Assembly (NCBI GenBank): GCA_022829145.1
Contig: CM040763.1
Span: forward strand, 11,579,141-11,643,140
Direction of reading: 5' to 3'
Source: Albula goreensis
Taxonomy: Eukaryota; Chordata; Actinopteri; Albuliformes; Albulidae
DNA length: 64,000 bases
The position numbers and the translations under genes were made by a program. The notes under the pieces are model-generated. The model made no database searches and had not been told where the DNA came from. It saw nothing but the letters and a program-made list of their open reading frames with translations. The stretch's first letter is position 1. Each line of letters starts with the position of its first letter. Positions 969 through 38,000 of the stretch are shown here, piece after piece.

Positions 969-10891
<9,923 letters not shown>

Positions 10892-13800
10892 CTTTGGTGT
10901 TCAGGTTTATTTTGACAAACACACAATAGCCAGTTTACAACTACAGGCACTATACTATGTGAAACCTCATCGCACCAGTCGACACAGGCTTCAAAAAGCT
11001 CTTCCTTAAAAGGAGTGGTAGACTGACAACAGCAAAAGATGTTTCTATGCAAAGGATTTTATGAGCTAAGAAATACTGTGGTTGAATTGAAAGGTGTAAC
11101 ATCAGTTACGCATAGATGATTGAGCTTTACTAACTGGTGTGACACTAAAGCAGTATTTATTTATTTTTTTTGTTACTGTTGTGAGATACACACTGTACTA
11201 ATCCTCTGGTGCTTCATGTCCTATCCATCAGGATGTATATTACTGGAAACAAAGTTTCAGTTTGGTGGTTTTATTTTTTTTAAATAGATTTATCTAATAT
11301 AAAGATCATATTTAGTATGTGTAATACTCTGACTTCATGGGTTATTTAATTCATGGTGCTAAAATGAAGTGTCTTTAATATAAATTTTCATTTTTAATGC
11401 CTTCATATTCTATGAAAGTTTGTTTATATGTTACTTTTTAAGGCAGAAGAAATTATTTTGAATGGCATTTTACACACTGCAAATGTAGAAACATGGAAAA
11501 AGTTATACACATGAACAAAATGTGTTGGGTTTTGTAACGCATAGTGTGAGTGGTTTCATGCACTTTGTGTACTGAGGGTAAAACATTTTGATAATTCAGA
11601 TCTAACTGCTTTTTTATCCTTAAGGTGGCAGACAAGTGTATTCACATTTATGTACAACATTTTCATCAGCCATTGATGGGTGATTTAAGTGAAATTATAC
11701 CATGCAGTTGAGACTACTGGTTACGAACAGATTTTTTACACTAATGTGTTATGGTGCTTCTAAAGACAACCTAACATTGATCTTTTTTATGTAACGAAAG
11801 ACAGCGCATATTAAGCCATTGTAAAGGCACATTTATAGAGCTGTTATATAAGATAAAAATAACACCTGGCATGTTTGTTGATTAATTATTATTATTATTA
11901 TTATTTTTTTTTGTCAGGTATAGTTTGTCATCTGTGATGGAACTGTATATTATAAAAAAGTTTCAAAGCAGGTCCATCAAAAAAAAAGAGAAAATCTGGG
12001 AATACTTACATGACTGTTGTGATCATAAACAGATTCTCTGCTCTGGGGTGACACATGACATGGGGGTTATCTGTATGTTAATGTAATGTTTTCCAGGCAG
12101 CTGGCTCGCTGTGGTGTCTTTAAACATAAAGTAATCTAATTGTACAATAAAAAAAAAAAAAAAATAAATAAAAAGTAAGATTTGTACAGTAAATTAAATT
12201 TAAATCTTAACACTTAATTTTTATTACTGTAAAGAACTGTTACTTTTCTTTAAGTTTGAGCTGATTTTATTTCAAATGGTGCTACTCAGCCGGCGATAAC
12301 CATGTATAATGTGAGAGTCTTTATGGGCAGCGAAAAGGTTAATGGAAGATGCTCCTACTTCTTATATACCTCAGAACTAGTTTGGCAATAGTACTATGAT
12401 ATAAAACATCATCACTTTCTTATAAATATAACAATAACAAAATCTTTAACAATAACATAAGAAGACGTAAAGCAAAATCCATAATCCATTTATTTTTCAA
12501 GCAATGAAGTATAACTTGAATGTCAAACTTCAATTTTATAATAAAATCAGGGATATGTCAGCTCTTTTACATATTTTTTCATATTTCAGAGTTTTCTGTG
12601 TATGCCAACACCACCTCTGTTGATTTACATGATTTTTTTTTTGCTTCAGGGATTTAGGCTCTATGTTTCAATCCCCCTTCACTACCTGTATATACTTTTT
12701 TAAAATAAACCATAAACTTCACAAAAGACAAAAATTACCTGCAGTTTTTGGTTTTTTAGCCCATGCTTAATCCATTCTTTTTGAGCTTAAAAAAAGAATT
12801 TGAACAAACAGTATGCACTGAATCGGGAAAAGTACAGCATTGACTTAAAAAATCAATGTGTCTGATTTTTACAAAGTCAAAATAAGTAAAAAGGAAAAAA
12901 AAAACAGGAAAAATATGATATAGTAAGTGCACATTGTGTACCTGTGAATAGCAAAAGCAGAATATTTATAATAACCACTAAATGTTTATAATATGCTTTT
13001 TGTTGTGATAATTGATGGGATGGTGGTTATGTGTAGTAATAATAACATCCCATTTTCCCATATGTATGATTAATTTCTGGAAGCACTTCATTTTTTCAGT
13101 TAAAATAGATTTTAAAAAGGCACCTGAAGAGAAATGTAGATTAAATATGTGTTTAAAATAAAAAGATACCACACTCTGTATGTGTATATGCACATACAAA
13201 ATCACATTAGTAGTTCATCAGTATAAATGATTTTGGTTATGTTTTAAAATCCTGCAATTGCTGTGTTTATGTTTCCTAGTTTTCCCAAAATCCATGTGTT
13301 TAATCACAAATAAAAATGAAAATAAACAATGTCTTCTTTATCCTCGTATCCCATCTAAGGATTTTAGCAGGTAGTACACCTAGACTATACTCAAGGAATG
13401 TCCATTGCTAAAGAGAATTTAGCCACCATATGTACCGGTATGTACAGTTTATTGTATGTCACTCCTATAGAAATGATGTAATGCTTTTTTGTAAAGGTTT
13501 GGGGGTTTTGTGCAGTAATGCGATGTAATTTCAGTGTAAAGGGCCCAGCTTCAGTAGCAGGTGATGAAGGAGAAATGAAGATTTTGGGGGATGGGTAATC
13601 AAGCATAGCCATACTTGAAAATGCTTCAGAGTGGTTTGAGTGCAGTCAACATTACTTGAATGACTTTCTGAGCTTGACTTACGCATGGGGGTGCATAGCT
13701 CTTCTGTTAAGCTAGCAGATACATGTTGGCATTTAGCAGTTAGACACTAAAGGTATGACGTTTGTGTTATTCACTGCTTTTGTCTGATTTTAAAGCCTCC

Positions 13801-13980
13801 CTTGTTCCCATAATGTGTGGTGTTCTTCACGAATGGAGGGAAAAACTGAGGATGGTTATAAATACTGTAAGTATTGCAATGTACTGAATGCAGTTTATTT
13901 CAGAGCTGTTTATTATATCATTCCTGATATTGCTGAGATGTGGGTGTTTTTAATAAACTTTATATTTATTTGAAGCAATT
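10892..13980 (+). other. tet2: Probable tet2 3' UTR
   Basis: This AT-rich stretch carries many ATTTA and TTTAT motifs and no open frame resembling a protein. Vertebrate TET2 has a 3' UTR of several kilobases, so I assign the stretch up to the distal poly(A) signal to it. A proximal AATAAA at 12146-12151 sits at the start of an A-run. The length is inferred; there is no transcript evidence here. Confidence 0.55.
13952..13957 (+). promoter_or_regulatory. Candidate distal tet2 polyadenylation signal (AATAAA)
   Basis: An AATAAA hexamer is followed by a T-rich stretch, about 3.06 kb after the tet2 stop. It fits a long 3' UTR, but the same hexamer occurs elsewhere in this AT-rich stretch, so usage is a guess. 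Confidence 0.4.
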
Positions 13981-16900
13981 TGATGTTATACTGTGCATTA
14001 TTTTATCTTCCTATTACTTTGTCTTTTGATCAACACAAACACACTGACATTGACTTATCTGCTAAAGGTAGCTCCAAGAAAACACCATTTTCGGGTAATT
14101 TAGAGTTAAAGAAGGCAAAAAGTCTTTAACATTTTCTTCTAATACATCATTATTTAATATAGAGACTACTGATATTCAATATTATCTGTGGATACTAATT
14201 CATTATTTCACAGCAAGGCTGGCTTATGAAGGGGTCACAGGATCTACTTGGGTAAAGGAAGTTTACCTTTGAAACATGAATAACATAAGCGCTGTCAGCA
14301 CTGACATCCCTAAGCTGTTCCTTAGCCCAATCACTTGGAACTACTTCCACAGATGGAGGGCACTGCTGGTGTTTCCAATGTTGCTTCTTGGAATTGTATT
14401 TAGCCCTCTCAGCTGTAAGTGTGCGTGTTTACTTGCCGTGACTCACTGCCTGTGTCATGTGCAACTCCATTTGAGAAGTCTTCCAAGGTCACAATCTGGC
14501 CAGGGGAGCCTTGAGTCCTACTTGGTCTGAGAGACTACTGGAGAATTCTTACTTGGGATGAATGTGATTATTTCTAATATGAAGTTGTCACGCTTTTTGC
14601 AAATGGATGTCAGTCCCACAATCCCATCTTCAGAGATGAATCTGCATGGGAGAAATATATTTCATGATTAGGTATTCACAGGGTGCTCTTACTCCAAAGA
14701 AATGAGGTCACTCAGGCTGACCTGACAGAATTACACTCGCTACTGCCTATTAGGCTTGGCTGTAGCATCTGAGGTTACACTGCTGGGCTATGCCTGTAAC
14801 ATCTGAAACCTTTCTTTAATATTTAACAAGTGTCAAAGAATACAGGATCTGAGTGATACAGAGTGTTGATGCATGGGATTGTGGGAAGGATAAATGCTTA
14901 AACATGTGTCTGTCCTTGATGGATGGCTGTAATTGAATAGCTCAGTTCTCAACATGGGGGCAGCTGAATGAAAGAAGAAATCTGTGTCTCTTTCTGCCCT
15001 TTTGAACCTATGACTACAAGGATGTCTGTATGCAAAATCACAGGCATCACATATACACCTTAGTTTCAACAAAAACGGACAAAAATGAAGGGGTGGTCAC
15101 ATGTCATGTCCTACCAAAACAGTCTGGGGGGATACACCCCACAGGAGATGGCTGACAGTCCTGTACAGATGCACAGAATCTTTACCTCTTCGGACTGCAT
15201 TTTGGTACACACTGAGGTAATGTTATCCTGTGGTGTTGGCTATGTAGTACTTATGGTTGTGATTTTCTTATTAGGTCTCACTGTGAATGCATTGTTTGTA
15301 CTCAAGGGTTTATTTTTGGTCCAACTAGCATAGCTAACGTGCTGTGTATATGCTAGATGACTGTAATGTAATGTTATGATCGGATGTACAGTTGTGCATG
15401 GAGGAATGGTTCCAGTTGGAGTGCCCCATGTCATTGTGTAAGAGTGAATCTGTTAACTGATTGATGATTGAAAGGTAATAACTAACTACCCTCAGATGAA
15501 CAGCATCCCTCCACACAATTGCTACTTAGCTCTGCTGATGGACTGCAGAGTGAAAATATGGTCTGTAGCATTCAAATACTAGTGTTCACATATACCCGAC
15601 TCTTAAATCATGCTATTGATCTCCCTGGCCTGCATTCAGTGTTCTTATTACCTTAGTTGTTTCCCCATTTAATGTTCAACAAAACACAATCACTGAAACT
15701 ACTTATGTGAACATATATTATGAATACTGGATGCACAACTAGCCCTGTGTAACATCACTGATTCTGTTATGGAAAATAAAACGTAAATTGGATGTCCACA
15801 ATTATTTTTAATGTCTATCAGGTTCTGCCAACACTTTGTGATTGATTTCTTACAAGAAGTAAAACTTGCCAGTAAAATAGTTTTCTTTCTGCTTAATCTA
15901 ATCTGGACAATGACTTGACAATAGTCTCTTACAAGGTTCCACAATTACACCAATTATATATAAAAACACTGTCAGCACACTATGTGATCATCTTATGACT
16001 TCTTTAATATGGAATCTAGCAATTGCATGTTTCTGTGCCAGACATGGTCATATATGCTGCTGCTTTTCTTCTGTTTGTTCAAAGGGTAAGTTGACAAAAA
16101 ATCAATGCAGACACCATTACTATTGACAAAACTTCCATATAAATGTCTCTTCTTTCACACTGTTCCTTTTTATAACCAAATATTTTTTTCCTGCTGGTAC
16201 AATTCAATTACATTTTTCAATGGTCCCACAGCATTCATTTTTGGGGAGTGGCTGCAAGTGCAGAAAATATAAAATGCAATTTCTTCTTAAAAATAGCCAG
16301 CAGAAAATGGCAAATGAAGCACATGGTGGGGACCCTCAGTGAATCTCATCATTTTCATTACATTTGACTATGAGTGGAGCAAGGAAGAACCATGTTGTCA
16401 CCAGGTGTATTGAAATTAAATGGATGATAGATAAAAAACACACAAACAAACATAAAAACAAACTGGACATTTATTGTGACTACAGTATATGAAAACAATA
16501 ATTCATGACTTGCAACTACATTATCATTTTTTAATTGCACCTTAAAATAACAAATCTAATGCATGCTAAAATCACTTTTGTAATAATATATCTCTCTGGT
16601 GCTATGCTGAATCAAACATGTTTGACCTTGAAGCATGGATTCAACCCAGCACAAATGCAACTGAAGTTTACAAAAAAAGAAAAATATATTTTTCTAATTT
16701 GTGAATTCCCTCCTCCTAAATCCTCCTGTGTATCCCTTGAATATGAAAACAAGAAGCCACATTGTATAGTTACAATAATTAGTCATTTTAAAAGTATCAG
16801 ATGAGTGTTTAATACATACTTTGAATATTCATACTTTTAATACCACTGAGTGCTTTACAGTATATCACATAGACAGCAGATAATAGACTCTGTTGGAACA

Positions 16901-17451
16901 GTGACCCAGTGAGCCAGTAATGGAGCTATGCCACATCTAATGAGATCATAATTGCCTCTGGACTAGGAAGGTGAATCGGGAGGTCTTTTATTTGATTTTT
17001 GAACATTTGAAATGCAATTTGTGAGTACAATTCCATAAGGCTACCTTTACAATGTGGACCTATTTGTCATAAGCGCTGATTTTTTCTCCATAAAGTGAAG
17101 CTATTAACATATCAATTTCATGCATAGCTATTGAAAGTAGTAATGGAATATTTTACAATCTCATTGTATTATCTATATGAAGTGTGCACATACCTGCCTT
17201 TTCTGTTCAGGTATTTTGAAGGCAAAAATATATTTTTAGGTAGAAATAATACAGTCATTATATTTTCTGATTGTTCTCTACATTAAAACAATTGGCCAGG
17301 TTTCATAAGCCCAGCACACCTACATTTCATCACACTGCACACTATGACATTACCATGTCAACTTACAATAAAGACATCAAAACAACAGGAGAGTTTTACT
17401 GAGCCCTAGTGGTGGAGGAAGACATCGCATTTGTGTAGGAGGCTTCATTAC
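13981..17451. other. Intergenic, no gene recognised
   Basis: I see only short open frames without family resemblance. I looked on the minus strand for the exon that should follow the J-domain exon (encoding IGNAYAVLSNPEKRKQYD-like sequence) and did not find it. There is no ppa2-like or arhgef38-like sequence, although those genes follow TET2 in tetrapods. Confidence 0.55.
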
Positions 17452-17597
17452 TTTTGAAGGCCTCAGTTGCTCCAGGAGCATGGTTCTTGTCGGGGTGAAA
17501 CTTGAGTGCCAGCTTCCTGTAGGCTTTCTTCAGCTCATCCTCACTGGCCTCTTTACTGACACCAAGCACCTCATAGTAGTCCTTGCACTTCTTAATC
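17452..17597 (-). CDS. Orphan J-domain exon (DNAJB14/DNAJB12-like)
   Basis: The minus strand reads acceptor TTATTTCTGTCCAG, then 146 nt open, then donor GTAATG. It encodes [38 protein letters not shown] and [10 protein letters not shown]. This is the core of a J domain, including the HPD tripeptide that stimulates Hsp70 ATPase. [10 protein letters not shown] and [15 protein letters not shown] are characteristic of the ER-membrane co-chaperones DNAJB12 and DNAJB14. The donor after FK plus one A fits the Lys codon of DNAJB14 (FKKIG) better than DNAJB12 (FKAIG). Without splicing, the frame continues 18 codons and stops. I found no N-terminal exon, following exon, transmembrane exon or DUF1977 part within reach. 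It may be a duplicated gene fragment, an exon of a long gene with distant partners, or an exon captured by another transcript. Confidence 0.75.
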
Positions 17598-18782
17598 CTG
17601 GACAGAAATAAGTAAAGTCATAATGAAGGAGGAAGTCGTTACTTGCAGGGTAAGTATACGGACACATTTTGCTTCTTTACAATCGTGGTTTGCATTTCAC
17701 ACTGATCAGATCTCTGTAGGCTGTCAGATCAGAGAGCTCCCTACAAAGGCTCCCAACTCAGAATATTAAGATGTCTATCCAGCATGAAGGACAACACCCT
17801 TCCTTTATGCTGATATGTCTTTGTTCCTTAAAAGTAACAATTCTGCTATCCTGAATTTATATTAAAAATAGTTCAAATATTTTTTTTCTACTTTTAACCT
17901 ATCTTTATTTACAATTGTAAAAAAAAAAAAAAATTATAAAAATATTACAGCGACGGAAAACCTGCCATAATTTAGCTAAGCTGTTGCCACAGAAATTCTT
18001 GTGAATCAGTGAATGCACCTCTACCTCCCATAATCTAATTCACTTGCATCAACATCAGCTATTTAACATGTCAGTAAATAAGCTTTGAGAAAGTATGAAC
18101 TTCCTAGATGTGGGGAGACAAAAATTATACTGGATGCGCTCAACGAAAACTGGAAGTAAACTATTGATTAAAAGTTGGATCTGAGCTGCTAACGGTATTC
18201 TTTTGTCATTTCTGTAGAGACTGGCAAACCATGATGTGATTCATGTTGGCAGAAACTTTTACCTATCATGAGCTGAATAAAAGCCATTGACTAAACTTGG
18301 CAATACCAGTTTACCTACCCTTATAATGGTAAGGTTTGACAGCTATGTTCTTCCTCTGCCTGGACATGAGGATTGATGTTAGGTTGCCAGCAATGATTGG
18401 CAGTTATACATACAAGTTGACAAGTCCTTCTTGAAGATGTGTTGTGACACTATAAATTATTTGTTAACACTTGAGCTTTTACTTCAAAACCCTCTCAAAG
18501 GTGACCTGTTATATTCAATTGTGAACAGTGCATGGCATGTGTGAGTAAATGTGCACATTGATGGTGATGGAAAAATGTCACTGAGGATAATGCTAACAAT
18601 CTGAATGCAATGCACATAAAAGTGTTTTAATAAGAATACTTAAAACACCTTTTTTTCCTGGGACAAATGATCAGAAGTTCAATTTCATGATCTCATCATT
18701 TTTAATGAAACTGATTAAGCTAGTTTATGATCCAGCATCAGATCTAAAAGACATTACATCCTTTTGTCAACCCTGCAATGCA
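17598..18782 (-). other. Probable ints12 3' UTR and flank
   Basis: This is non-coding sequence between the ints12 stop and the orphan J-domain exon. On the minus strand an AATAAA occurs at 17904-17909 (TTTATT on the plus strand) near T-rich/A-rich tracts. It is a plausible poly(A) signal for ints12, which would end the transcript about 300 nt before the J-domain exon. Confidence 0.45.
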
Positions 18783-19382
18783 TTATTTCTTCAGCTTCTT
18801 CTGTGCGGCTTTCTTCTTCACCATCTGCAGTCGCTTCATGGCGTTGAGCTGGGACTCTTGGGTGGTGGGCGTCTTGCCTCCGGCCGAGGCTTCTGTGGCA
18901 GCCTTCGCACCATTGTTGTTGTTATTATTGTTACCGCCACTTCCGCTGCCGCTGCTGTTGCCGTTTCCTCCGGAGCTCCCATTTCCGCTGGAACTGGGCT
19001 GGCTGCTGGCGGAGACGGACACGCCCACCTTGTTAACGCTGTCACTGCTGGACGAGCGGTTCAAGCCTGGCTTCCCTAGGATCAGGGGTGGCGGGGGCTT
19101 GAGTGGGGGCGGGCTGGGTCCCTCACTGCCAGCACTGCTTCCTGGTGATGCTTTAGTGGCCAGGCCTGCCTTGGCCCCAGCCAGCCCGGAGAGTCCCGGT
19201 GGTTTTGGGATGGATGGGGCTGTGCTGGCTTTACCCCCACTGCCCTGCAGCCCAGAGCCCAGCTTGGCTCCAGTAGGGCCCGTGGTGGCGGTCTTCGCCC
19301 CGAAAGCGGCCCACCCTGTGAGCCCGCTGGAGGAGGGAATGGAGCTGCTGCTGGAGGGGTTTGCTGTCACTGTCGTGGACGC
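18783..19382 (-). CDS. ints12: ints12 last coding exon
   Basis: The 600-nt exon follows CTCTCTTAG. It encodes [14 protein letters not shown], the conserved [31 protein letters not shown], a Ser/Gly/Asn repeat region, and the conserved tail ending KKLKK, with the stop read at 18783-18785. It is GC-rich compared with its surroundings. Confidence 0.95.
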   Translation of the reverse strand, partial: ASTTVTANPSSSSSIPSSSGLTGWAAFGAKTATTGPTGAKLGSGLQGSGGKASTAPSIPKPPGLSGLAGAKAGLATKASPGSSAGSEGPSPPPLKPPPPLILGKPGLNRSSSSDSVNKVGVSVSASSQPSSSGNGSSGGNGNSSGSGSGGNNNNNNNGAKAATEASAGGKTPTTQESQLNAMKRLQMVKKKAAQKKLKK

Positions 19383-22257
19383 CTAAGAGAGACAAAAAGA
19401 GACTACAGAACTGCAGAAAGTTTTCCTTTGTTAAATGAATTTTTATCCTTGCATTTTGCTTGCAAACATCCTGCCTTTCATTTGTGATGTTTAAGTTATC
19501 TTCATCCCTAGGGGAATATTATATGTACATTCCTTTATAGAGCCAGAAACAGTATTGTAAGGCAAATAAAGAAAAAAGCCTGATATTATGAGACAACTTG
19601 ACGAAGCCCTGCAGTTCCATCTGTTTTAGTCCTAGGCAATTTAAGATACCAAATATACACAAAAGTAGCAAGAACAAAAACAACTGATGCACTAACACCT
19701 TCTTAAAACAGTCTTCAGAATCAAATCAAATGGTTTTCCCCTGCCATGTAATTAACACACATTTGAATGTGAGAAAGTGCACACAGAAATAATACAATTG
19801 AATTTGACTTTATGAATAGATCACAGCATGAACAAAAAAACTCCCTTGCCTTGACTTCAGTTCTCTTAAAGGCCTGGAAGGTGCTGGCTGTATCCTGCTT
19901 GGGTCTGACCTCGGACTTCTTGACAAGAGTGTCCTTCACCACAGGGGCTGCGGACACTGCAGATGGAGAAGCTTTCTGTGGAGGCTTCTGCGTCTTCTGA
20001 GCCTGACAGACAGCAAAACAAAGTGATGGACCTAACAAAGGGGTGTCACTTCATAACACAATGGCAGCGCTTCAACTCCTTAACCCATGAAAGCACACTG
20101 ATGGTCCCCACCATGCGCTTCATTTGCCTGGTGCAGCGGGCGCAGTACCACACAAGCCGCGGATCGTTCACATCCTTGTCCGTCACTTGCGGCTTGTGAC
20201 ACTCTTGGTGGTAGAGATTGTGACATTCCTGACACTCCACAAGTTGGTTCCCTGATGTGACTGTCATCTGCCTAAGATGTCAGAAGTGGAGACCATAATA
20301 TTAAAATGGGGCAGAGAGGCATCAAACGGATCGGTAAAACATCCTTCTTGCCCACCCGAGATCCAAATATCTGTGATAAACACATTCATAAAACATCACT
20401 GATCATAATCAAGTGAGATCTTCCAATAGGAACTTTACAGTACAGACCTGCAAACCACACAGGCCAGACCCATCTCCATGGCAAAGTCATCAGCGCTGGT
20501 TTCATCAAAGCTGGAGAGATCAGCCAAGGCCAGGTCCTTACTGGTCTGAACAGTGATGGGAGAAGATCGGTTCTCCTGCTTCTCCAAACGAGGTTTCTTG
20601 GGTGGCTCTGCTCCATCACCTAAGTCTACTTTGACCTTACAGAAAAACAACATCAAAGTTGGGTTTAACAATTACACCTTAATCTAAACATTAGATTTAT
20701 TCTGCTACGCTAAACATGTATAAACATGTATAACAATAATAGGTTGTATAACAATAATCAGCATGCAATATATAGTGATATACATTTTTCATACAATACA
20801 AATTAATAAATAAGCCTGATAACAACACTGAACTATGTCACATTTTAAAATAAAAAAAGATCAACGTTATCCTTACTTTTTTCATATTTTCTTAAAGGAT
20901 CAGACATTTTATCACTCTTAAGCACACATAATTAAGTTTGTAAAATCTTTTGGAGCTTTATGAATGCTGAGACTTGTCTCTTGGTTCTGTCACTGGATAT
21001 GAGGCCATACACAGGGGAAGTCCATCACTAACGCTGAAAGTCCACCAGTTTCAAGCAATTTTTAACTAATTTCAGGGTCATTGTGATCTAAGCATCAGGT
21101 AATAGCTCTACTAAGCTCTGGATTAATATTCATATATTCTCAATTTTCATTCTGATTCAAAATGGCAAAAGGGGCTGCCATACCTTGCCAACAAGATAAC
21201 TTTTCCACAGTACTGGGGTGAAGATGAAAAGCCACAGCCAATCATTTACTTCACCAACTTATCTGATAATGGCAGTTGCAAGGAAAAAGCTTTTTCAAAA
21301 GCCAAAAGCAGCTTCAGACTGTTATGATAATAAATGTTCTATGGAAATACTTTTGGTATGGTGTGGCAGTTTTGGCATTAAAGGGCTGAAGCCCAGGTTG
21401 AGGTGGACATAAGCCCCAGCTTTACTGATGAATGCTTTGATCTGAGGTTGGTTTAGTGATTTAGGCTGCATCCTCTGTTCCTGATACCCTTGTCATGGCA
21501 AAGGAAAATAGACACCATCATATTTAAGAATGTTATTTTAGAAAGTTTTATTGAAGAAAGTGGTCAGAAATGTTGACAAGGAAGACAGAAAGAAAGACAG
21601 ACAGAAAGAAAGAGATTCTCAAAGCCAATGCAGAACCAATGATACTATTTTCTTTTTTTTTGACACTTTAAAAATACAGAATCAACTATAGGTCACTGGA
21701 CATTACAAGTCACATTAAAAAAATACTTAATTTTATTTTCAATAGTTATTTTTATTTTCAAAAGTACTTGACTTGTACCTCATTCTGAAGATTAGCTACC
21801 TTTTCAGAAGGCCTTTTTTTCAGCCTCTTTCTTGTTCTTCTCCAAAGAACTAGATTTCCCATTATTGATGCTTGATGAGGAGGAACTGGAGGAGGGTTTA
21901 GAATCCTGTTTGCTCAAGCTCACTTTTGAGACAGATACACGAGGGACGTCCACCTCCTGTAAAAAGTTAAACAGTTCAGACCTTAGCAAATCAAATGACT
22001 GTTTACAAAAAAACTTAAAGCTTTTGAACTTGTACACTAACACCAGAACGATCAAACGCCCCTTATTAAGCTATATTATCACAAACATCACAACCGAATA
22101 CCTTCTGAGACGTTCTATAAGATGAGTCGCTTCCTCTAGCTAACGATTCATCCAACAGAGCCTTGAGTTTCTCTGCGGAATCTTTGCTTTTTGAGTGAAG
22201 GTACCCCAGACCTTTCAGAAAGATTGGGTCGAGCTCAAGATTTACTGTTGCAGACAT
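18783..22257 (-). CDS. ints12: ints12, Integrator complex subunit 12 (six coding exons, one apparent frame break)
   Basis: INTS12 is a nuclear subunit of Integrator, the complex that cleaves snRNA 3' ends and attenuates paused RNA polymerase II. Six exons predict 470 residues (human 462) if one extra base in exon 2 is discounted. Residues 1-~45 hold the conserved N-terminal helix ([20 protein letters not shown]), the part of the family known to suffice for Integrator function. A basic/Ser-rich linker follows. The PHD finger has all eight zinc ligands: C163, C166, C180, C183, H188, C191, C210 and C213. The C-terminal half is Ser/Gly/Pro/Asn-rich and ends [20 protein letters not shown], then KLKK. 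Introns are GT-AG except the last, which appears to be GC-AG. The 1.16-kb intron at 20636-21799 holds no other gene I can see. In tetrapods this gene is divergent from GSTCD; no gstcd was found here. Confidence 0.95.
19850..20002 (-). CDS. ints12: ints12 coding exon 5 (GC splice donor)
   Basis: The 153-nt exon follows CTGTCAG. It encodes [20 protein letters not shown] and ends [10 protein letters not shown], matching human [10 protein letters not shown]. After the Lys codon the sequence is AAG|GCAAGG, a good GC-AG type donor. The only nearby GT donor, GAA|GTCAAG, is weak and would drop the conserved VK. Confidence 0.9.
20112..20271 (-). CDS. ints12: ints12 coding exon 4 (PHD finger core)
   Basis: The 160-nt exon follows CATCTTAG and ends ATG|GTGGGG. 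It encodes [20 protein letters not shown] and [19 protein letters not shown], supplying C180, C183, H188, C191, C210 and C213 of the C4HC3 finger. It leaves in phase 0. Confidence 0.95.
20448..20635 (-). CDS. ints12: ints12 coding exon 3 (start of PHD finger)
   Basis: The 188-nt exon follows TTCTGTAAG and ends at GTCTGT, leaving in phase 2. It encodes [42 protein letters not shown] and ACVVC, giving the first two zinc ligands, C163 and C166. Confidence 0.95.
21800..21956 (-). CDS. ints12: ints12 coding exon 2, with an apparent one-base insertion
   Basis: The exon lies between acceptor TTTTTACAG and donor GTAGCT. It encodes [20 protein letters not shown], a Ser run and [10 protein letters not shown]. 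At 21814-21820 there are seven T's on the plus strand (seven A's in the sense strand). With seven, the frame hits TGA just before the donor. With six, it reads EAEKRPSEK, which aligns with human EAEKRPADK and enters the next exon in phase 0. The exon is 157 nt as given, 156 without the extra base. Confidence 0.88.
22102..22257 (-). CDS. ints12: ints12 coding exon 1
   Basis: The start codon is the CAT read at 22255-22257 on the plus strand. The protein begins [20 protein letters not shown] and continues [20 protein letters not shown], nearly identical to human. The exon is 156 nt (52 codons), phase 0, with donor GTATTC. Confidence 0.95.
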
Positions 22258-23479
22258 GATTTAAGATAGCAGCTAAAGGCCTCCTATGTTTATCCTAATC
22301 AGCTCTCTAATTTAGTAAGGAGAGCTAGCTCACGCCATAAACATAATAAACAACGTTTTAGCTAGCTAAAATTTTATTAGTAGAAACAAGATAGAAATTT
22401 AGATAGTTATTGTAATTAGCTATCTATAGGTACCAAAAAAACATACATTCTGTCAACTAACGTCACCGAACAAAGAATTATATGGCAGGATATAAACTAT
22501 AGCCTATGTGCATACGTTAGCTAAGCATCACCTAACGACTTATGCAAGACATTTTTCTGTAGCCAGCCATAACTTTTACAGCTACCATTTCTCTATCAAT
22601 TAGAGATGAACTAACTAGATAACCTGCGATTGTATTAATATAGTTGTCACAAGTTTTTTTTATGGTTAACTATGGAAAAGCATTTTGAAACAGCTAGGCT
22701 ATAAGTACTACTCTGCAGCTGTCAAAACACGACATCCACGAAATCCGTATAGTGTCCCACTATAAAATTGTCCGTGGGAAACATGAGCAGCCATTTCTAT
22801 TTCACTATTTCTATTTTAAATTCAAGATTGTAACCGGCGACTACAAACATTTGTTGTTTTGTTTCAGTTATATATGCACTTTCTACGTTTTGTCAGTATC
22901 ATATGGCTATGAGGTTGATCAAATAATATCCCAGTTTTATGAGTGCTATGCATACACTCTAACCAAAATGATGGGAAAACATTGAAGGTTACACAAGGCT
23001 CCAAACGCTGACCTCAGATCAGCCGCTAATCAAGGATTAACCATAGTCCCTACAATGAATACTTGGGCAGCCTCTCTAGGCAGCAATGTCACTTTTCATC
23101 GTGCTATAATATCTGGGACCCAGTGATTTTGTCTGGGAGAAAAAAAAATGTTTTACACTGGCAGAACAGGTACCTACTGACATTCTGCTGAACAGCACAT
23201 ATGTTCATGCAGATGAATGTCTTGAACACAGCACTGCACAACTGGAATCGAAAGGTACACCCCATGCCAGTATAGTAGCATGGATGAATGAGCTACAATG
23301 AGTTGTCACTCAGTTATTAGCCTTGCCAATGTTCCTCCATTACACTTCAAACTCCTGTTACTACTGTGCAGCACAGAATGTAAGTAAAATAAAGACGGAA
23401 CAGAAATGTATCTCTATTAAGCACACAGAATTAAGATATTTATATATGTATGTATGTATGTGTACATATATTTATATAG
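22258..23479. other. ints12 upstream flank; no divergent gene found
   Basis: This AT-rich stretch has several AGCTAGCT-like words and no CpG cluster. It should contain the ints12 promoter. In tetrapods GSTCD starts head-to-head here on the opposite strand, but I see no sequence resembling the GSTCD N-terminus on the plus strand. I cannot place a transcription start. Confidence 0.45.
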
Positions 23480-23601
<122 letters not shown>

Positions 23602-24192
23602 ATAATCTTCCTCAAATCATCCTTTCCCCCAGGGGTTTTCAGAATGGCATGTCATTTAACTGGCTGACAGCCAGAAGACAGTTTTCTATTATCACATCAG
23701 TCTGAAACTTCTGGCCTATCAGTTCTGTCATTCTAAAACCGCATAACTGATTTCAAGACGTCATACCGAACCAAACAGCTTCAGAAATATTAGACCATGG
23801 TTATATTCATTAAACATTTTAATATAGTTTGTATACCTCCTGATAAACTCGAGAGCAGAAGTTTACAGTGTGTACATTGCTCTCAACAAATGTCCTTCAG
23901 TCAGAAATTTTCTGAATTTCACACTGTATAAAAACATCCATCTTCAGAGTATATGACCTTAGTACATTTTACAAGTACCAATGGAAATCACAATAGGTCG
24001 CTTCTAACAAAGTGATGCACAACCAATCTGAGCTGAAGTAATTGTCACTTTGTGACACATTATATGATACAGAGTTTTTTTTTTTTTTCAATATTATCTT
24101 GCATTACAATGGTTGTCTTATTTCCTTTCTTTTGTAGGTTGAATAAAAACAAATATCCATCCTGGACTTTCAAGGGTGATAGATGTCTACTA

Positions 24193-37689: not shown

Positions 37690-37927
37690 ACAGGGTTATC
37701 TCATTCTGTGGTTTACATTTACTCTGGGCATAACTCTTCTGTTTTCCAGCAGCAGAATCTGTATTCTTTAAACTCCTACAATATGTCACTGAAGTTTGTC
37801 TTGGCCTGAAACTCACTGTGCCTATTTGGTGCTCAGAAGCACATGCTGCACACATATCTACAAATGTCTATGTGTACAAACACACCCACACATATGCACA
37901 CCCACAGGAACGTATTCACATATGCAT

Positions 37928-37932
37928 ACACA

Positions 37933-37976
<44 letters not shown>

Positions 37977-38000
37977 TACACGCACACACATGCACACACA
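37928..38000 (+). repeat. (CA)n microsatellite, interrupted
   Basis: CA units are broken by TA, TG and CG variants. The core pure tract is about 37941-37971. Overlapping His/Thr and Cys/Val open frames are repeat artefacts. Confidence 0.95.

Follow-up and report, generated by a model that had tools for sequence, protein, structure and literature searches.

A lone copy of dnajb14 exon 3 between tet2 and ints12 in Albula goreensis, probably an old partial duplication refreshed by gene conversion

A J-domain exon between two convergent genes

The window analyzed here, the whole 64,000-nucleotide stretch at C23:11579141-11643140, carries the ends of two convergent genes, which we take to be tet2 and ints12, and between them a single exon of a third. 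The names of both genes, and the choice of dnajb14 rather than dnajb12 for the third, follow from comparison with human sequences. The features of this region, in window coordinates, are as follows.

9395..10891, plus strand: open reading frame with the last coding exon of tet2; Tet_JBP domain (PF12851), 50.1 bits
17446..17451, minus strand: 5' splice site gtaatg, the same sequence as in dnajb14
17452..17597, minus strand: stray copy of dnajb14 exon 3, 146 nt, entered in phase 2 and left in phase 1, the same phases as in dnajb14
17598..17608, minus strand: 3' splice site and pyrimidine tract (tttctgtccag), the same sequence as in dnajb14
17904..17909, minus strand: AATAAA between the ints12 stop and the stray exon, a possible ints12 poly(A) signal by consensus only
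18783..19382, minus strand: open reading frame with the last coding exon of ints12 (gene named by comparison with human INTS12)

The tet2 stop at 10891 lies 6.6 kb from the stray exon in convergent orientation, and the ints12 stop at 18783 lies 1.2 kb upstream of it on the same strand. This setting between tet2 (plus strand) and ints12 (minus strand), as given in a preliminary description of the locus, is borne out by the open reading frames and by Pfam profile matches that place a Tet_JBP domain in the tet2 exons and a PHD domain in the ints12 exons. Eleven AATAAA motifs occur on the plus strand between the end of tet2 (10891) and the stray exon. On the minus strand, the stretch between the ints12 stop and the stray exon holds two further possible poly(A) signals, ATTAAA at 18706 and at 18631, and these, together with the one at 17909, may end ints12 ahead of the stray exon.

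Several other observations concern the surroundings. The last ints12 intron (window 19380-19860, minus strand) has an apparent GC donor (AAG followed by gcaagg) and a standard AG acceptor, its boundary being judged by comparison with human INTS12. A long TTTC/GAAA microsatellite at about 23417-23616 is open in several frames, and simple repeats at 8608-8710 (GT-type) and 37854-38000 both match, in opposite orientation, one repeat beside a J-domain exon on C10. A search of window positions 10000-24000 against Rfam found no known structured RNA at curated scores.

The stray exon spans exactly 146 nt, from 17597 down to 17452 on the minus strand, where its boundaries read tttctgtccag before GATTAAG and TTCAAAA before gtaatg. 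One of its three frames is free of stops and gives a 48-aa translation. The Pfam DnaJ profile (PF00226) matches this exon over positions 1-44 of 63, including the HPD motif, at 68.3 bits (cut-off 27.8), and the top match of the translation among solved chains is the J domain of DNAJB12 (2ctp). These matches, and the identity to dnajb14 exon 3 described below, place it among DNAJB12/14 J-domain exons. The preliminary description, which had reported a 146-nt J-domain exon with splice sites, an HPD motif, and no stops, was thus right in both its coordinates and its characterization.

That description had also claimed that the exons such a gene needs on either side are lacking, and this held in a tblastn search of the window and the 10 kb to either side with a human DNAJB14 protein, which gave, besides the stray exon, just two matches, at E values of 1.2 and 2.1, and no other dnajb14 exon. 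Nucleotide comparisons for relics of exon 4 (window 16000-17216) and exon 2 (17697-18782) did not rise above random. That the exon belongs in the ordinary way to a gene extending past the window, which had been named beforehand as an outcome that would overturn the claim of isolation, is rejected within 10 kb of either side by the same tblastn search. Of what makes up a functional dnajb14 gene, namely eight ordered exons, a start, and the DUF1977 part, we found exon 3 alone in the window and the 10 kb flanking it on each side.

The intact dnajb14 gene and its relatives in the genome

Across the genome (932 Mb in 208 contigs), whose gene content and chromosome number point to a teleost, we identified 66 J-domain matches. 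A genome-wide DNA search with the stray exon and its edges returned seven places. Besides the query itself these are C23:11969042-11969297, which matches at 99% in the same orientation as the stray exon, a place on C18 with 89%, and four others that are shorter or weaker and fall on J-domain matches. A separate J-domain-like match at C19:16709645-16709794 contains an internal TAG and may represent a decayed copy or the edge of an exon.

The 99% match falls within a complete gene that runs from C23:11973828 to 11965692, has the same orientation as the stray exon, and lies 372 kb from it on C23. Its eight exons are separated by seven introns, all seven with GT-AG boundaries, and its 381-aa reading frame is open and encodes a DnaJ and a DUF1977 domain. 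We named this gene dnajb14 because a human DNAJB14 protein matches all eight of its exons in order by tblastn. The preliminary description had suggested aligning the stray exon to the full-length dnajb14 gene of the same genome, and the alignment finds it identical to exon 3 (C23:11969109-11969254) at 146 of 146 nt. The stray exon, occurring unchanged in a complete gene, is therefore far beyond chance. This gene is also the sole other near-identical copy that we found in the genome. The window thus shares exon 3 and its splice sites with dnajb14, but has only one of the eight exons, no start, and no DUF1977 domain. In mammalian cells, DNAJB14 is described as sitting in the ER membrane, its HSC70-binding J domain facing the cytosol (PMC11981610).

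The 89% match belongs to a second dnajb14 gene, located on C18 at 11452-11461 kb, where tblastn detected seven of the eight exons (1-4 and 6-8) and did not detect exon 5. This gene would appear to be the genome-duplication partner of the one on C23.

A near-identical core and its diverged flanks

The similarity between the stray locus and dnajb14 extends beyond the exon into both adjacent introns, and it changes in character along the way.

17216..17384, minus strand: probable diverged stretch corresponding to dnajb14 intron 3; 113 of 164 ungapped columns identical, 41 gapped columns
17385..17644, minus strand: near-identical core in common with dnajb14, consisting of the exon, 47 bp of intron 2, and 67 bp of intron 3; presumed conversion tract
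17645..17696, minus strand: diverged homologous stretch corresponding to dnajb14 intron 2; 36 of 53 columns identical

Within the core, 258 of 260 positions are identical to dnajb14. The two differences, at 17403 and 17638, are the only ones, and all 234 positions between them agree. The 5' edge of the core is sharp, with five consecutive mismatches straight after 17644.

Beyond this edge, positions 17645-17696 align to dnajb14 with a score of 35, whereas none of 2949 random segments from the gene region scored above 6, and none of 1000 segments of other sequence scored as well. Diverged homology on the 5' side is, on these alignment scores, firm. On the 3' side, positions 17216-17384 align to intron 3 of the gene in the right order and with similar spacing, and the strength of the signal depends on the length compared. 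At 60 bp there is none (1579 of up to 3000 random segments are as good). Random segments as good number 26 of 2000 at 80 bp, 1 of 2000 at 120 bp, 0 of 2000 at both 150 and 200 bp, 9 of 2000 at 300 bp, and 60 of 3000 at 500 bp; two further tests gave 0 of 1000 and 7 of 277. Diverged homology is accordingly graded as probable here. The limits used for the 1000-segment tests, and for the clustering test below, were set after the alignment had been seen. Because gapped alignments of unrelated segments average 63% identity on the 3' side and 59% on the 5' side, the 69% identity of the flanks is not telling by itself, and it is the score that is. Past 17696 and below 17216, no homology rose above random.

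Differences between the two copies are strongly clustered when the core is compared with the 5' flank (P = 9e-13, with sites treated as independent). The simple distance is 0.40 for the flanks and 0.008 for the core, which would make the core about 50 times younger than the flanks, with a range of 14 to 430 when only the count of two differences is considered; the flank distance is rough and probably too low, since gapped alignment raises identity. The dnajb14 gene on C18 shows no similarity in the 300 bp on each side of exon 3 (490 and 353 of 500 random segments as good), indicating that the intron near this exon is not generally constrained.

Origin, possible function, and significance of the copy

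The 47 bp and 67 bp of intron carried along on the two sides of the exon mark the copy as a DNA-mediated partial duplicate. A retrocopy is rejected, as intron parts are kept and there is neither an A/T tail nor a repeat at the edge; the best direct repeat found when 17345-17391 is compared with 17641-17760 measures 7 bp and lies away from the edges. In a genome-wide search in which very common words were skipped, a 2.2-kb query around the exon matched seven places, namely itself, dnajb14, and five J-domain exons, and the dnajb14 gene segment additionally gave two weak matches in intron 2, at least about 585 bp outside the stretch that the two loci share. We likewise reject a repeat-family or transposon-cargo origin of the flanks, for which nothing was found in 229 kb of sequence or genome-wide. 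The preliminary suggestion of a local segmental copy stands insofar as this is an isolated copy of a dnajb14 exon whose donor lies on the same chromosome. The recent age attributed to that copy does not fit homologous flanking intron whose identity is down to about 69% or below, firmly so on the 5' side and with weaker evidence on the 3' side.

We propose, as the probable history of the locus, an old partial duplication of roughly 480 bp whose exon-centered core was later homogenized with dnajb14 by interlocus gene conversion. A DNA-based duplication would have placed exon 3 of dnajb14, with parts of introns 2 and 3, between the convergent tet2 and ints12 genes in the same orientation as its donor. 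The copied intron would then have drifted to its present divergence, and the 260 bp centered on the exon would recently have been overwritten, probably by conversion between the two copies, which would account for the perfect look of the exon and its splice sites. An old duplication with a later overwrite of the core explains both the diverged 5' edge and the near-identical core. A wholly old copy is disfavored because the intron parts within the core are near-identical and such intron is not conserved in the C18 gene.

Sharp-edged identity within a longer diverged homology, as expected of an interlocus conversion tract, is what we found, firmly on the 5' side and more weakly and in a length-dependent manner on the 3' side. 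We infer conversion, its age, and its direction from one pair of sequences, and two sequences do not by themselves reveal direction. The length of the core falls between the tract averages reported elsewhere, on the order of 10 to 100 bp by likelihood analysis (PMC3924818) and 6.26 kbp for events in human segmental duplications (PMC10172114). Efficient recombination is described as requiring about 200 bp of uninterrupted identity in yeast (PMC3924818), more than 200 bp in mouse, and 337-456 bp in human (PMC3966225), and because of this requirement the core must have been kept similar until the last event. This counts against our proposal in two ways: the core is shorter than the human range, and the need for similarity asks for repeated conversion or some constraint. 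Conversion may have been recurring. Among 164 duplicated teleost genes, the median share of post-duplication codon substitutions attributed to conversion was between 7% and 8% (PMC10503786).

Copying of some 260 bp in one recent event, for instance by template switching in repair, would account for a core with two differences and for the sharp lower edge at 17385, next to which 60 bp are without similarity; the resemblance of the flanks would then be chance or a by-product. We regard this as unlikely because the 5' edge is 30% diverged, its 52 bp beyond 17644 scoring far above every random segment, and the 3' flank, too, beats all 2000 random segments at 150 and 200 bp. An assembly or polishing artefact might be suspected from a core about as long as a short-read fragment. 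However, neither the window nor the 26 kb around dnajb14 contains an N, the flanks at both places have no near copies in the genome apart from J-domain exons, and a mis-join is not expected to yield diverged homology at its edge. The assembly mis-join that had been named as a refuting case is unlikely on these grounds, and we consider an artefact of any such kind very improbable.

It is also conceivable that some readthrough or unannotated transcript includes the exon, as a cassette or as its terminal exon, and that selection and conversion together maintain the exon sequence. The splice sites of the exon are complete and identical to those of dnajb14, and it lies downstream of ints12 on the ints12 strand. 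Yet no partner dnajb14 exons were found in the window or the 10 kb on each side, the exon alone encodes only part of the J domain, and its adjacent introns are near-identical as well, which coding selection leaves unexplained. Moreover, the last ints12 intron reads as phase 0, so that the stray exon would continue the frame from the last ints12 donor as GAT TAA and stop at its second codon. An in-frame ints12 fusion from that donor is therefore rejected, and we found no evidence supporting the use of the exon in ints12 readthrough, as the preliminary description had envisaged; readthrough carrying it as untranslated sequence is possible. With no partner exons and no in-frame path from the last ints12 donor, we found no route from the stray exon to protein, and use of the exon seems to us quite improbable.

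Judging from the sequence, the stray exon is most likely a non-functional relic. We would give very little weight to the reading in which repeated conversion has kept the lone exon matched to its parent exon for as long as the duplication has existed, on account of some function. Candidate roles in that reading would be an alternative exon of another transcript, a bank for re-copying dnajb14 exon 3, or, within an antisense tet2 readthrough, a long perfect match to dnajb14 RNA.

Partial duplication refreshed by conversion is an already known kind of event. Like the partial gene duplicates described in PMC3449122, the stray exon is a DNA-mediated copy of part of a gene placed elsewhere and open to conversion by its parent, but unlike those described there it consists of one internal exon without a recruited reading frame and is putatively non-functional. 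With the cases of conversion between paralogs described in PMC3924818, PMC3966225, PMC10172114, and PMC10503786, it has in common a near-identical, sharp-edged tract between diverged stretches and the location of both copies on one chromosome; it differs from the cases described there in that a lone exon takes the place of one of the two genes and in resting on one pair. Among the titles and abstract openings listed for open-access papers on dnajb14 and zebrafish, we found no description of a stray dnajb14 exon.

The locus cautions against taking the perfect preservation of a lone exon as a sign of recent origin or of function, since conversion with the parent gene can renew its sequence. Anyone annotating genes, mapping reads, or calling variants at dnajb14 exon 3 in Albula goreensis can also be led astray by copies of this kind. 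If the stray exon were expressed, it would offer a small test case for the interplay of conversion and function.
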